64,000 nt of DNA from Sporomusa sphaeroides DSM 2875 (GTDB lineage: Bacteria; Bacillota; Negativicutes; Sporomusales; Sporomusaceae): positions 4,643,501 to 4,707,500 of the forward strand of contig NZ_CP146991.1 in NCBI RefSeq assembly GCF_001941975.2, written 5' to 3'. Shown piece after piece: positions 930-8,779 of this stretch. Every line of letters starts with the position of its first letter. Within the stretch, counting starts at the first letter, position 1. The notes beneath the pieces are model-generated. The model was not told the origin of the DNA. It saw nothing but the letters and a program-made list of their open reading frames with translations, and searched no databases. The position numbers were made by a program, and so were the translations under genes.

Positions 930-1157
930 TTACGCTTGCTCAACTAAATATTTATAGTAATCCAGCATCCTGACATAGTAGGAGTCATCACGAATAACCG
1001 AAGTAACAAACCCTTTTAAGACATGCTCTCTTACTTTGCCCTGGTAATTATAGAATATCCAACGCCAATCATGCACCGTCCCCTGCACGTTTACCTCTTC
1101 TAAAATCGCTTTCTGAGGGCTGTGGGGTTGAAATACCCTGCTTCTACTCATTATCAT
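930..1157 (-). CDS. Hypothetical protein, 75 residues
   Basis: Small open frame starting at ATG 1157; a TTG at 1196 would extend it into the structured RNA block and is less likely. The product is rich in Tyr, Val and Arg (ends in DYYKYLVEQA), with no signal peptide or membrane segment. I do not recognise it. It could be the remnant of a larger gene separated from its 5' part by the element that begins near 1190. Confidence 0.4.
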   Translation of the reverse strand: MIMSRSRVFQPHSPQKAILEEVNVQGTVHDWRWIFYNYQGKVREHVLKGFVTSVIRDDSYYVRMLDYYKYLVEQA

Positions 1158-1189
1158 CGAAAGCGATATTAATTGGAAAATGGGCGACC

Positions 1190-1894
1190 GAGACAAGGCT
1201 ATACAGACGTTCTTCTGTATAGCTCGAGTACAGTTAAATAGGTGAAAATCCTATACACGGGGCGCATGAAAGTGCGTGACGTGTCCGATGGGGGGAGCGG
1301 CTCTGGTTCAACGGAGCGCAGGTAACTGCGAACGTGAATAGCTCAACCCTACAACATATCTTAGCGAAGATATGGAATGGACCTTGAAATGGTTCTATGA
1401 GGTAATGTCTAATATGGTGCTAGGTTTCAACTGCCTTGACCATCATAACCAAGAGAAACCGTTACTTGTAACGGGTAGTAACACGGAACTTCTATATTCC
1501 GCCGTCATTAGGCTATGATGCGAAGTGCGACACCTACGTTAGACTTATACTGACTGTACAATAATCGGGTAAGTTCCGAACGGCGATTCTCTGAATCGTG
1601 CGAGGAACGGAAGCGAGAATGACTAGAGTTTGAACTGACCTGCTAGAAACGGTGGGAAGGTGAAGCTGGATGGTGTGGCAACCATTCACTTAAAGCTACT
1701 CGAAAGTTCCACCTCTCCTTGAGAGAGTACGCATAGGGGTGGCTCCCCTCTTATGTAGATATATATGTACCGTATATGCGTACACCGAGGCGTATGTACG
1801 CTTGTACATAACTTATATTGTAAAAAATATATATCTGTATAAGAGGCGAGCCAGCTTTTAGGCGGGAGCCTGTCCATTCGAAGTACAATGGGAG
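1190..1894 (+). ncRNA. Highly structured RNA block, group II intron-like
   Basis: About 700 bases with no credible gene but dense hairpins on the + strand: GCTATACAGA pairs with TCTGTATAGC (1198-1223), CATATCTT/AAGATATG around 1360, CCGTTAC/GTAACGG around 1460, a GAAA-capped hairpin around 1255-1283, and a long arm pairing 1741-1766 with 1827-1852 over about 26 bp with few mismatches. The style (GGTGAAAATCC near the 5' end, EBS-like strings, protein gene directly downstream) resembles domain I to IV of a group II intron, but I find no canonical domain V and no reverse transcriptase. The boundaries are approximate. It is best treated as the RNA half of a mobile or regulatory element together with the 1895-2593 protein. 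Confidence 0.5.
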
Positions 1895-2593
1895 TTGAAA
1901 AAGATGGTCTATGAAGATGGAGCTTGGCAAGCGTTCTTGGAGCAAATCATTCGTCTCGTGTCGCGCCACGGATACCAAAACTTTTCCTTATCTATGTATC
2001 CGCTGACGAAATTCTCGAAATGGGGCGGCATCGACAAAAAACTAATTGCAAAATACCATGCGGATTCGACAACTATGCAGAGATATAGAGCTAGAAAAAA
2101 AGGGTATTGCGCTTATTACTTTCTTCGATGGAAGCAGTATGCTATCTTGTTTAAGTCGACAGGTCAAGTTCCCCCTGGGATTATTCAGGATGATATCTTT
2201 CTCTCTATATCTCGGCATTCTATCAATATACGAATTGGTGAATCCGTTGTGATACAAATAGTCCAGAATGATGGAAGAATAACTGCCAAGCTAGATGAAA
2301 AGACGTACAAGGGGCTGAAATCGAAGCTTTTTTATGCGGCAAATGACGCACAGAAAAAACGTAACGCAAAGCCTCTTGAAATTGAATACAACAAACTCAA
2401 CGGTCTACCTTGCTGGAGGGGTATTCTACAACAAAAAAGGAGGTTGAAACGATACTGTACTAAACTCGCCAAAGAGCGGAGAGTTACGCTAAATGCCAGT
2501 AACTTGCGATTTAGAATCCTGCGACAACCTCATAAAAGCAAAGATTTCGGCACTTTGCCGTCCTCTGACATAAACACAGAAGTCGGGGTTTAA
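1895..2593 (+). CDS. Unrecognised basic protein tied to the structured RNA
   Basis: A 232-residue, strongly basic protein starting within ten bases of the end of the folded RNA block. It has a W-G-G-I-D-x-K-L-I-x-K-Y stretch near residues 43-55, an R-x-R-x-K-K/Y-F-L-R-W stretch near 65-80 and a K-x-Y-x-G-L-K segment near 140. There is no reverse transcriptase, maturase X, HNH or transposase motif. The Lys/Arg-rich tail (QQKRRLKRY) fits RNA or DNA binding. I recall similar unnamed proteins beside intron-like RNAs but cannot prove the relation here. The stop codon lies inside a hairpin that precedes a terminator. Confidence 0.6.
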   Translation: MKKMVYEDGAWQAFLEQIIRLVSRHGYQNFSLSMYPLTKFSKWGGIDKKLIAKYHADSTTMQRYRARKKGYCAYYFLRWKQYAILFKSTGQVPPGIIQDDIFLSISRHSINIRIGESVVIQIVQNDGRITAKLDEKTYKGLKSKLFYAANDAQKKRNAKPLEIEYNKLNGLPCWRGILQQKRRLKRYCTKLAKERRVTLNASNLRFRILRQPHKSKDFGTLPSSDINTEVGV

Positions 2594-2634
2594 AACCCCC
2601 GACTTCGGAGGTCAGATTAACTGACCTCTTTTTT
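2579..2634 (+). terminator. Double hairpin terminator of the RNA/protein element
   Basis: Two consecutive perfect hairpins: GAAGTCGGGG with its complement (2579-2606), then GAGGTCAG/CTGACCTC (2608-2628) followed by six T. The first contains the stop of the upstream gene. They mark the likely 3' end of the element's transcript. Confidence 0.85.
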
Positions 2635-3787: not shown

Positions 3788-4336
3788 CTATAGATTTAAA
3801 TTAATATATACATCATCCAATTCCTCTTTGGTAATACCGATATAAGCAAGCGTAACACTTGGCGCAGAGTGGTTTAAAAGTTTTTGTATGCGAGTAATAT
3901 TCGTTCCCGCCTGATAAGCCCAGTAGCCAAATGTTTTTCGCAGAGTGTGCGTTCCTACAGCCTCCTTAATTCCGACCATATTGGCAGCTTGAGAAAGAAT
4001 TCTATAAGCCTGCACACGACTTATTGCACCCACTCCCTTGCGCGAAGGAAACAAATAACCTGCTTCCAACCCTGTAGCTTGTAAATATTCTTTGATTGCT
4101 TTTTGGCATGTATCTGATAGTGGGAAATCTTTTGTCTTCCCAGTTTTCTGTTCCTTTAAACTGATACGTTCTTTACGCTTTACGTCCTGCACCTGTAAGG
4201 AGAGTAAATCGCTAATGCGTAAGCCGCTATTAATGCCTAACACAAACAAAAGATAGTCTCGAATATTTCCAGCTTTCAAATAGCGTTTTACTGCCTCTAT
4301 CTGTTTTTTGCTTCTGATTGGCTCAACCAATTCCAT
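3788..4336 (-). CDS. Small tyrosine recombinase (catalytic domain only)
   Basis: A 182-residue site-specific recombinase of the phage integrase family. The catalytic residues are present: Arg in SGLRISDLL, Lys in the beta-hairpin (QKTGKTKDF), His-x-x-Arg in THTLRKTF, His in LLNHSAP and the nucleophile Tyr in TLAYIG. The N-terminal arm-binding domain is missing and the core-binding domain is at most very short, as in other ~180-residue recombinases of Firmicutes, some of which invert or resolve short DNA sites. Two palindromic sites sharing the half-site ATGTAACA lie directly upstream (4357-4394 and 4476-4502) and are its likely substrates. Confidence 0.88.
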   Translation of the reverse strand: MELVEPIRSKKQIEAVKRYLKAGNIRDYLLFVLGINSGLRISDLLSLQVQDVKRKERISLKEQKTGKTKDFPLSDTCQKAIKEYLQATGLEAGYLFPSRKGVGAISRVQAYRILSQAANMVGIKEAVGTHTLRKTFGYWAYQAGTNITRIQKLLNHSAPSVTLAYIGITKEELDDVYINLNL

Positions 4337-4525: not shown

Positions 4526-5506
4526 TCAATCATCTTTGTTAATCTTATAGTCCAGACAATCCGAACAGATTTCTATACAGTCAGCATGATTATATAACAA
4601 CGCTCCACAGCAACTACAAAATGACAATTCGTCTATATCGCACTGATGCCCGCAAGAAAAACAAATAGCTGTACCTTTTTCATAATCAAACACAAACGAT
4701 TCGCACCCACATTCAAGACATGTATAAAGCGGATATTCACCGCCATCCTTAATGGTTGAATACGCATCCATACCTAAAACATTATTAACATAGTCTTCGG
4801 CCGCTGATTCTCCACTGTCCTCATACTTACAAAAACAGCATTTTACGCTACCACCATCTATCACTAAAAATTTCTCTTTACACTCTGGGCAAATTATCGC
4901 GGATTCCCCACTTTGTTCAAGTTCTTTTCGTGCTAATAACTTAGCATCGTCATAGTGTTGCGTAAGACCTCGCATGGCATCCTTTATCTCGAAAAAAAGC
5001 TGACGTTCTTCTTCACTAAATTCCTCAATATCATAATGTTCTGCTATAAACTTTATCAAAATAGAAATACTTTTATGAATAGAGCTTTCAATAGACAAAA
5101 TATTCTCGTCTAACTTAAAATGCTCTGCTTTATTACGCCTTCCTCTTAAATTTTTCAAGCATCGCTTGTCTGATTCATTAAGATTTATATCACATAGATT
5201 TTCCAAACGCCCAATGATGGTCTCACTATCAGCGCTTTTTAAATCGCCTGTTTCCAAATCTTTCTTTCTCGCCTTATTCATATCTGCAAAAACGTATGTC
5301 CAATTCTCTTGCAGTAAATGATGTTTAAATACAAGCTCTATTCCAGATGATAAATGAAGTAATGCGTACTTAATTAGTCTCTTTTTCTCAGCCTCATCAA
5401 TCGCACCTTCATTAGCAACCGATAGATTATTAATCGCTGATAAAATAAAATCTAACCCATTTTCAAAAACTGTGTATTGCAAAATTACCCGACCTCTTCC
5501 ATGCAT
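4526..5506 (-). CDS. Zinc-ribbon protein, second gene of SIR2 operon
   Basis: A 326-residue protein. Residues 1-200 are helical and polar without a recognised domain; residues about 210-326 hold a row of CXXC pairs (CPEC, CCFC, CLEC, CFSC, CSCC, CSDC), i.e. about three zinc ribbons. A TTG at 5482 with a GAGGT element upstream is an alternative start. It lies 41 bases downstream of the SIR2 gene on the same strand, so the two are probably cotranscribed. I know no family with this arrangement. It could sense or bind nucleic acid or regulate the SIR2 effector; this is inference. Confidence 0.65.
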   Translation of the reverse strand: MHGRGRVILQYTVFENGLDFILSAINNLSVANEGAIDEAEKKRLIKYALLHLSSGIELVFKHHLLQENWTYVFADMNKARKKDLETGDLKSADSETIIGRLENLCDINLNESDKRCLKNLRGRRNKAEHFKLDENILSIESSIHKSISILIKFIAEHYDIEEFSEEERQLFFEIKDAMRGLTQHYDDAKLLARKELEQSGESAIICPECKEKFLVIDGGSVKCCFCKYEDSGESAAEDYVNNVLGMDAYSTIKDGGEYPLYTCLECGCESFVFDYEKGTAICFSCGHQCDIDELSFCSCCGALLYNHADCIEICSDCLDYKINKDD

Positions 5507-5547
5507 TTTACATAAAATATATACTCTATATCCAATCTCCTATTTAT

Positions 5548-8538
5548 CTACTCATAATACTCGAAATATAATTTTATTAAACTTATTTCTGCACTACCAG
5601 AAATTATAAATTCACGTATTTTATTTTTTATTAACTCTTTTGCCCCATCAACCTCAATAATCCTGTTATTAATTGCTTCTGGTAATTGGGTTAACCATTT
5701 TAAATCAAACTTGCTAAAGTTAAAATTATTCATATCATAGATAAAATCAAATAAGTCGCTTTTCCCTTTAAATACATCATACTTATTAATTTCTACTACC
5801 TTTTTTGCATATATTAAATTAATTAAATATCCCATATATGTATCTATAGGATTGGGTATAGAATTTCCATTTGCTTTATCGACAAACGAAACCAAAGTAT
5901 TTATAAAACATTCCTCGAATTCCTGATTTGGAGTGATTACATCCCTCAGACATGCGACTACATATAATTCAACATTAAAATTCGTTTTTAGCTCATTATT
6001 AATCAAAGAAATTAATTCCTCTTTAATGTTTCCATTAGCAATCTTAAACAAGGGGATAATAACCCTTGTAAAAAATCTTGTCCGATAGTCCGTTAAATTT
6101 TTATCATTATTTATCTTCCAAATTAAATTGTTTATAACTCGAGAAATATCTTTCAAAAAATTTCCTTCTTTGCTAATAATTACACTAACAAAATCTTCAA
6201 TAACTCCCATTGTCTTGGTTGCTTCCAAATCCCACGCAGACGCTCTATTATCTACAATCTTAATGACATAATTCTGAATAAAATCATATATTATTTCTGA
6301 ATCTATATTTTCTTTAAACTTATTATGTTGAATAACAATAAAATTTGATATATTTTTATAATTGTTATAGGTTAGTGATGATAATCGCTGTAACTCATTA
6401 ATTTTTGTCATAATAACCTTAAAATTATCAATTCCAATATTTACATAAGATAAAGCCGCTAATGATTCATCCAACATATCATTATTAGGGAAAATGGTTT
6501 TAAATCTAATGATAGAATCAACTAAATTCTTAAACGCTGAAATACATTTATCTATATCGTTTTTTTCCATCTCTAATTCATTGATTTTATATTTATCAAA
6601 CAGTAATGATATTTCCTTTTCTTCGATATTACTAATCATTAAGAACATTATAGAGTATGGTATTTTCCTGAGTTTACTTCTGCGAATAGGTATTTTTAGA
6701 ATATTGTCTTCAGGATTAATTTCTTCTGTAGTGTAACTAATTAGCATTGTTTCGGCTATTGTATGATAAAACGCTTTCAATTCTGAATAATGTCCAATTA
6801 GTAAATAATTATATGTTATATACTCCCAAAAGTTATTAAGCTGAATTTCGGTTTTTATTATTGGCGAGGCTCCCCCCACTCTAATAACATCTTTTTCTTT
6901 CGACACCTCATTCTGCAACAAAAATACTCTATTATGATATTTATAAACAAACTGAAAATTTAATAATTCTTCTTTAATAAAAGAAATTGCTTTGCGCTCT
7001 TCTAAGGGCAAACTATTATAAATTTCATTCAAATCAATAGTTTGGATTTCAGCAGTTAAGTTCTTATCACATATTGGATTAATAAAACTTCCTTGCGTTA
7101 TTAATCTACCAATATGCTTTCTATTAAATTCAGATATAAAAAACAAAAGATATTTTTTATTATCAAAAAACATTGCAGATGCATCTTTGAAAATATTGTA
7201 TGCTAAAAAATAATCCCGAAATTTATAGTGCAAAAAAGCTCTACGAAAATAATCAATGTCTTTATTTAAAGGTTTTTGCAATTCACAATCAAGTATATTA
7301 GAAAGAAATACATAATTGAAATTTTGTATTGCCTCAAAAACTTCATCTGCTTTAATTTCAACCGACGGAACATTATATATAACTTTACCGTTAACATCTT
7401 CAAATCCCCGAATATTTGCCTTCTGAAAAGTTTTATTAATGATATCAATTTTTTCTTTTAATACCTTATCGTCATTTAACAAATCCTTTTTTTTACTAAG
7501 GCAATCCACTTCCTCAGTAAATTTAATAATGTCCTCTGAATGAGTTCTTATACAGTCCTTATCTAAATCAGACGTTTTAGAAATATCAAGGATTCTTATA
7601 ATATCATCAGGTAGTACTTTGTTTAGTGGCTCAAAGACCTCTAATTTTTTGTACATAGTTTCTATTTTACTTTCTGGTTCTTGATACTTTTTTACAAAGT
7701 TTAAGAATTTATATAGAAATTTCCCTTTAGGATGTAACCCATCAAGTAAATTATCGCTAACAACAAGACTCTCAACCAAGTCTTTCACTTCTGAGCAATA
7801 CAGAATATTTATGCCTTTCTTTTTATAGTATTCAAATTGAATTCTGTCGATATTCCCTTTCTCTTCCATATTTCCAATATCCAGAAGATAAGCATGCTGA
7901 AAATCTTCTTTAAGAATATCTTTAACCCATTGAAATATTAGATGAACATTAGGGTCATTAACTGAATAACCGACAAATAAAATTATATGTGTAGCAAATA
8001 ATGATTTTATAAAATTTTCTATCAATCTAAAATTGAAAGAATAAGATAAATAATCATCCTCTTTTAATACAATGTTTTTAAATTTCAAATCGCCATGCAT
8101 CTTTATCAACATTTTTCCATTGGGGGTATATGGTAAATCCTTGTCTTGACCTACAACATCATAAAACACCCCATTTGAATGTGCTGCCATTTCTATTAAA
8201 TCATCATAATTTGTAGTAACAATATGAGCAGGATTAAGTGAAAGCAATATATCATGAATAGCAGTTGGTTTAATATCTACAGAAAATACTTTATTGATAA
8301 TATCATAATATTCTTTTTTTCCTCTCTCATTAAAATAATACTGAGGAATTTTCAAATACTCTTCATTAGTATATTTATCAGCTTCTTTGCCGATTCCTTT
8401 AGCAAAATAACTAATTAGACTTCCCCATGATGGTAATCCTGAATTTGCAGATACTCCTGCACCTACAAATAGAACAAGTTTATTTTTCTGAGAAGCTTCT
8501 TGTATTTTTTTTACGCTTTCAATAGTAAATCCTCTCAT
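5548..8538 (-). CDS. SIR2-domain defence protein, DSR2-like architecture
   Basis: A 996-residue protein. Residues about 20-230 form a SIR2-like NAD-binding domain: GAGVSANSGLPSW near the start, TTNYDDLIE, the catalytic-type KMHGDL and a C-terminal GYSVNDPNVH. The remaining ~750 residues are helical and unassigned. This size and order match defence-associated sirtuins such as DSR2 (about 1000 residues), which deplete NAD+ after sensing phage proteins. Start ATG 8538 is chosen because GGAGGT lies 5 bases upstream; an ATG at 8550 sits before that site. The gene is AT-rich and sits in an island with a recombinase. The SIR2 fold is sure; antiphage function is inferred. Confidence 0.82.
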   Translation of the reverse strand: MRGFTIESVKKIQEASQKNKLVLFVGAGVSANSGLPSWGSLISYFAKGIGKEADKYTNEEYLKIPQYYFNERGKKEYYDIINKVFSVDIKPTAIHDILLSLNPAHIVTTNYDDLIEMAAHSNGVFYDVVGQDKDLPYTPNGKMLIKMHGDLKFKNIVLKEDDYLSYSFNFRLIENFIKSLFATHIILFVGYSVNDPNVHLIFQWVKDILKEDFQHAYLLDIGNMEEKGNIDRIQFEYYKKKGINILYCSEVKDLVESLVVSDNLLDGLHPKGKFLYKFLNFVKKYQEPESKIETMYKKLEVFEPLNKVLPDDIIRILDISKTSDLDKDCIRTHSEDIIKFTEEVDCLSKKKDLLNDDKVLKEKIDIINKTFQKANIRGFEDVNGKVIYNVPSVEIKADEVFEAIQNFNYVFLSNILDCELQKPLNKDIDYFRRAFLHYKFRDYFLAYNIFKDASAMFFDNKKYLLFFISEFNRKHIGRLITQGSFINPICDKNLTAEIQTIDLNEIYNSLPLEERKAISFIKEELLNFQFVYKYHNRVFLLQNEVSKEKDVIRVGGASPIIKTEIQLNNFWEYITYNYLLIGHYSELKAFYHTIAETMLISYTTEEINPEDNILKIPIRRSKLRKIPYSIMFLMISNIEEKEISLLFDKYKINELEMEKNDIDKCISAFKNLVDSIIRFKTIFPNNDMLDESLAALSYVNIGIDNFKVIMTKINELQRLSSLTYNNYKNISNFIVIQHNKFKENIDSEIIYDFIQNYVIKIVDNRASAWDLEATKTMGVIEDFVSVIISKEGNFLKDISRVINNLIWKINNDKNLTDYRTRFFTRVIIPLFKIANGNIKEELISLINNELKTNFNVELYVVACLRDVITPNQEFEECFINTLVSFVDKANGNSIPNPIDTYMGYLINLIYAKKVVEINKYDVFKGKSDLFDFIYDMNNFNFSKFDLKWLTQLPEAINNRIIEVDGAKELIKNKIREFIISGSAEISLIKLYFEYYE

Positions 8539-8779
8539 TTTGACCTCCATTAATCATCCATGTGTCTCACAATATGCTGTGTGTTTTATTTTTGAAATTT
8601 TCCAACTAGTATAAGTATAGCACTTCTTATTTATAATCTATATCCCTAATACATAAAATGGGGCAGTAAACACAACTGGCTATACTGGTTGTACATTAAT
8701 ACTTTTACCAAATAAATTTAACACTTAATTATCCTAATTCCGCAAGATAGGCGATATTGGCAACCTAATGGAAGACCAT

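Follow-up and report, generated by a model that had tools for sequence, protein, structure and literature searches.

What kind of element joins a large folded RNA to a basic protein that is not a reverse transcriptase (RT)? The question is raised by a locus near the start of a 64,000-nucleotide stretch of DNA from Sporomusa sphaeroides DSM 2875 (contig NZ_CP146991.1, positions 4,643,501 to 4,707,500). This whole stretch is referred to as the window, and coordinates are those of the window unless stated otherwise. The original prediction described the locus as resembling a group II intron and proposed that it might be ribozyme-derived or a ribonucleoprotein element, with a new protein taking over from the usual maturase. 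Our sequence comparisons point instead, with a probability of about 0.93, to a 5'-truncated circularly permuted (CP) group II ribozyme with a co-linear acpG gene directly 3' of it. Elements of this kind are already known (Roth et al., 2021), as is AcpG as their companion protein, and the window copy is a truncated new member.

The CP group II class, or 'T-large' RNA (Roth, Weinberg, Vanderschuren, Murdock, Breaker, 2021; PMC8637638), has its domains (D) in the order D5-D6-linker-D1-D2-D3-D4. Its hallmarks are the 5' splice site GGGCG, the 3' splice site NU, a bulged adenosine in D6, a linker released as a circle of 15 to 86 nucleotides, and P1 and P2 stems, with a loop-loop pseudoknot between P2 and D2. 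For five members, in vitro experiments demonstrated both the circles and the branched RNA. According to the main text of that paper, the RNA is present in Deinococcus-Thermus, Firmicutes, and Proteobacteria. AcpG (TTHC007), encoded by plasmid pTT8 of Thermus thermophilus, was named as the companion protein of these RNAs.

In the window, D6 is located 5' of D1. D6 (1115 to 1152, plus strand), delimited by its fold and by alignment with D6 of relatives, is followed by a 29-nucleotide linker with a small stem-loop (1153 to 1181), identified by sequence and fold, and then by D1 from position 1182. The predicted fold of D6 contains a single bulged A at position 1146, 7 nucleotides from the putative 3' splice site, which would follow position 1152. 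The splice-site motifs of the CP class are both present: D1 begins with the 5' splice-site motif GGGCGACCG (GGGCG(AC), 1182 to 1188, plus strand), and the end of D6 (...CTTCTACTCATT at 1152) fits the 3' splice site NU. The D1 core (1182 to 1387, plus strand), defined in a nine-sequence alignment, includes the GGUGAAAAUCC hairpin and the AAUAGCUCAAC motif. The window RNA and the CP class share the arrangement D6-linker-GGGCG-D1-D2-D3-D4, the bulged adenosine of D6, and the lack of an RT or maturase, and D5 is found 5' of D6 in relatives of the window copy. The signature formed by the end of D6, the linker, and GGGCGACNNNGAMA occurred once in the window and was absent from 100 shuffles. Among 380 genomes of the host's class, Negativicutes, the D6-linker-GGGCG signature was found in exactly the three that encode the protein.

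In all 12 relatives carrying the RNA, D5 and D6 were detected upstream of GGGCG and D1, in the permuted order of the class. In a D5-D6 alignment of 11 relatives, from three of which a long D6 loop was trimmed beforehand, 16 of the 22 pairs were changed on both sides with pairing kept. Double changes were also found for 17 of the 27 pairs of D1 in the nine-sequence alignment. In two relatives, present on a Planctomycetes plasmid (L012) and a cyanobacterial plasmid (L027), the Rfam group II model RF00029 matched upstream of D1 above its gathering score of 40 (49.4 and 47.6 bits, respectively). The group II-like character initially proposed is borne out. An ordinary group II intron with domains in the normal order D1 to D6, having lost its RT, would also account for the group II-like features of D1 and the absence of an RT gene. 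However, D6 precedes D1 in the window, as D5 and D6 do in the relatives, the window yielded no D5 on the 3' side of D4, and the open reading frame (ORF) belongs to the AcpG family and is not a degraded RT. The upstream D5-D6 matches refute this explanation, to which we assign a negligible probability. Canonical bacterial group II introns do have in common with these loci the D1 and D5-D6 motifs (RF00029 in relatives) and the bulged adenosine, but they differ by the rotation of the domain order, by the reversed and internal position of the splice sites in the CP elements, and by the absence from these of an RT ORF in D4.

The densely paired RNA block claimed by the original prediction is real. 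The folding energy of the region from 1180 to 1900 was -249.7 kcal/mol, in comparison to -203.1 kcal/mol (standard deviation 5.2) for 20 dinucleotide shuffles (z -9.0). Alignment of the region from 1113 to 1903 with the closest relative (L004) revealed that 53 of the 198 consensus pairs were double-compensated and that none was broken, whereas 30 column-shuffled control alignments gave a maximum of 21 double-compensated pairs. Pairing is thus conserved between the window copy and L004, and D1 to D4 are kept as a structure. The RNA had been proposed to start at position 1190; the start was moved to 1113, where homology to L004 begins. The RNA remnant (D6, linker, and D1 to D4, plus strand) accordingly extends from 1113 to 1903, as defined by DNA homology to L004 and by pair compensation. 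Its long 3' hairpin (1730 to 1858, plus strand), detected by folding, is probably the stem of D4, an assignment made by position only; L004 harbors a shorter hairpin at this place.

Searches of the window with Rfam, at the gathering threshold and at E values up to 10, returned only chance matches of microRNA and snoRNA models to an AT-rich hairpin, and no match to domain V or RF00029. As originally noted, the window contains no canonical domain V. This is explained by the loss of D5 through 5' truncation, in combination with the position of D5 as the first domain in this class. The known giant RNAs OLE, ROOL, GOLLD, and raiA were considered, and no Rfam match supported any of them. The lack of an Rfam match in the window, together with the lack of a family match for the protein (see below), would be compatible with a new ribozyme or ribonucleoprotein (RNP) element unrelated to known classes, with a new protein in place of the maturase. 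We consider this very unlikely, and the idea of a new RNA class was dropped in view of the CP group II paper and of the D5-D6 region present in relatives.

The gene located 3' of the RNA (1904 to 2593, plus strand) encodes a protein of 229 residues. The protein had been proposed to comprise 232 residues, with a start at TTG 1895. The start is most likely ATG 1904, since the L004 protein starts there, and a likely ribosome-binding site, GGGAG, is located at positions 1890-1894 of the plus strand. As predicted, the protein is basic (pI 10.1, 43 lysine and arginine versus 18 aspartate and glutamate residues). It had no match in Pfam, NCBIfam, or PHROGs, in agreement with the proposed absence of RT, maturase, and HNH domains, and PADLOC returned nothing. 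By comparison of a six-protein Thermus AcpG profile with a profile of 12 homologues (window protein included), hhalign aligned 182 columns with a probability of 95.2% and an E value of 2.5e-8. In reciprocal hmmsearch analyses, the AcpG profile and the homologue profile each ranked the members of the other family first. These profile comparisons indicate that the window protein is an AcpG homologue. The proteins of both groups are basic, comprise approximately 200 to 260 residues, are encoded next to a CP group II RNA, and contain an N-terminal 'GY..P' block and a C-terminal 'LxxLPxFxGIxxQ' block. In contrast, gene and RNA are oriented divergently in Thermus and co-linearly in the window; for this comparison, TTHC007 was taken to be the 259-residue pTT8 gene beside the RNA region, chosen by its length and divergent position. 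Profile matches to the Protein Data Bank were judged to be due to chance (E > 0.1), and an AlphaFold model built from two sequences was unusable (pLDDT, the predicted local distance difference test score, of 41).

Homologues of the protein are encoded by two other genomes of the host's class (61% and 30% identity) and by several Bacilli. The latter comprise Bacillus timonensis (L003), a Planococcus plasmid (L006), four additional Bacillales genomes with a long protein match (L019 to L022), and one more contig from the Bacilli, 3.7 kb in length (L043). Beyond Bacillota, homologues were detected on the Planctomycetes plasmid L012 and on two cyanobacterial plasmids (L026 and L027). Two genomes (G539 and G1102) yielded only short fragments of the protein, and no relative was found in the viral contigs scanned. 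A pattern match obtained in these scans (L050) was due to chance; it is located within prophage genes and is not accompanied by AcpG. In L022 (genome G712), the C-terminus of acpG is cut by an inserted transposase gene (region 1159-3182 of L022). This transposase gene is present three times in a 20-kb stretch, and a matching C-terminal piece of acpG is located 10 kb away.

The original prediction had suggested asking whether homologues of the protein always lie 3' of a similar RNA. This was found for the 12 other near-complete homologues, each of which is directly preceded, on the same strand, by a large RNA containing GGGCGA. The loci described here and the CP group II RNAs already reported are alike in being carried by both plasmids and chromosomes. 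The two sets differ in layout, since acpG is always directly 3' of the RNA and on the same strand in the present loci, whereas orientation was variable and the RNA never precisely abutted an ORF in PMC8637638. They also differ in range, since Planctomycetes and Cyanobacteria are represented here and are not named for the RNA in the main text of that paper. In seven relatives (L003, L005, L006, and L019 to L022), an array of hairpins with UGCCAA- or CGCCAA-type loops is present 5' of D5. A 3' loop UUGGCG near the start of acpG in L003 and L019 could pair with the CGCCAA loops, in a manner similar to the pseudoknot proposed between P1 and the 3' end.

The window DNA is 68% identical to L004 over 1446 aligned columns, from position 1113, corresponding to the first bases of D6, through the RNA and the ORF. 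The whole region located 5' of this point in L004, including the P1 and P2 stems and D5, is missing from the window, and it had no other match anywhere in the host genome. The window copy differs in this respect from the CP class and is filed as a truncated, rather than intact, member because D5 is absent. Several observations weigh against the assignment to this class. D5, the defining catalytic domain, is missing from the window copy, whereas it is located 5' of D6 in all 12 relatives carrying the RNA. The similarity to AcpG is remote, being detected by profiles with approximately 19% identity over the aligned columns. Finally, the boundaries of D2 to D4 in the window RNA were set by position only.

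With P1, P2, and D5 lost, the window copy should not splice in cis and, from the known role of D5, is probably catalytically dead in cis. It might nevertheless still be functional, with the D1-D4 RNA and AcpG acting non-catalytically or relying on a D5 provided in trans. The acpG ORF is intact, its dN/dS ratio (nonsynonymous to synonymous substitution rates) relative to L004 is 0.06 to 0.20, varying with the method, and the pairs of D1 to D4 are fully preserved. However, the RNA and the protein are each present as a single copy in the host genome, which provides no other D5 region, and it is not possible to tell whether selection acted before or after the truncation. We consider a functional D5-less copy to be improbable.

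In intact relatives, the transcript would fold as D5-D6-linker-D1-D2-D3-D4, and the bulged adenosine of D6 would attack the downstream 5' splice site GGGCG. The end released in this step would then react at the 3' splice site that follows D6, generating a short linker circle and a branched RNA. By analogy with the five members studied in vitro, such back-splicing may be expected at the present loci. AcpG, encoded immediately downstream of D4, would be produced from this transcript too, as suggested by its position, strand, and ribosome-binding site. Since AcpG is basic and tied to the RNA, it most likely binds and stabilizes it. The window copy would at most supply the D1-D4 RNA and AcpG. A broader proposal, that of a co-transcribed RNP with two components, the CP group II RNA and an AcpG in the place of the maturase, and of copies lacking D5 that persist through a non-catalytic function of the RNA and AcpG, appears to us quite doubtful.

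The element had been described as ending in a double terminator. The second hairpin (2607 to 2629, followed by TTTTT; 2607 to 2634, plus strand) is indeed similar to an intrinsic terminator, but the first, a GC-rich hairpin that overlaps the acpG stop codon (2579 to 2606), lacks a T run on the plus strand. Directly 5' of the RNA, a Doc/Fic (death-on-curing) toxin gene and a small upstream gene (246-820) form an apparent toxin-antitoxin pair. This region is 82% conserved in a genome devoid of the RNA (G004). The stretch from 838 to 1112, which occupies the place of the lost P1, P2, and D5, had no match in the genus and is probably the truncated end of a foreign gene; a minus-strand ORF (930-1112) has its 5' end extending antisense into D6 and D1. 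Downstream, a short tyrosine recombinase of 182 residues, limited to the catalytic domain, is encoded at 3788-4336, and a similar one is present near the L022 copy (8271-8801 in L022). Two adjacent minus-strand genes (4526-8550) encode a 1000-residue protein with a SIR2-type N-terminus (ThsA/Dsr1-like) and a 326-residue PDC-S64/DUF3644-like protein, possibly an anti-phage defense pair.

Relative to the main text of PMC8637638, the present analysis extends the range of phyla, identifies a strictly co-linear arrangement of the RNA and acpG, and provides a natural copy devoid of D5. Because the RNA is strictly followed by acpG across widely separated lineages, the two partners are more likely to be linked physically or through regulation than could be claimed in the original paper. 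The 5.5-kb Planococcus plasmid pA26H1 (L006), which carries rep, a potassium-channel gene, the CP group II RNA with acpG, and a MerR-type gene, would be a simple system for experiments. What the window copy mainly shows is that acpG is able to outlive D5.
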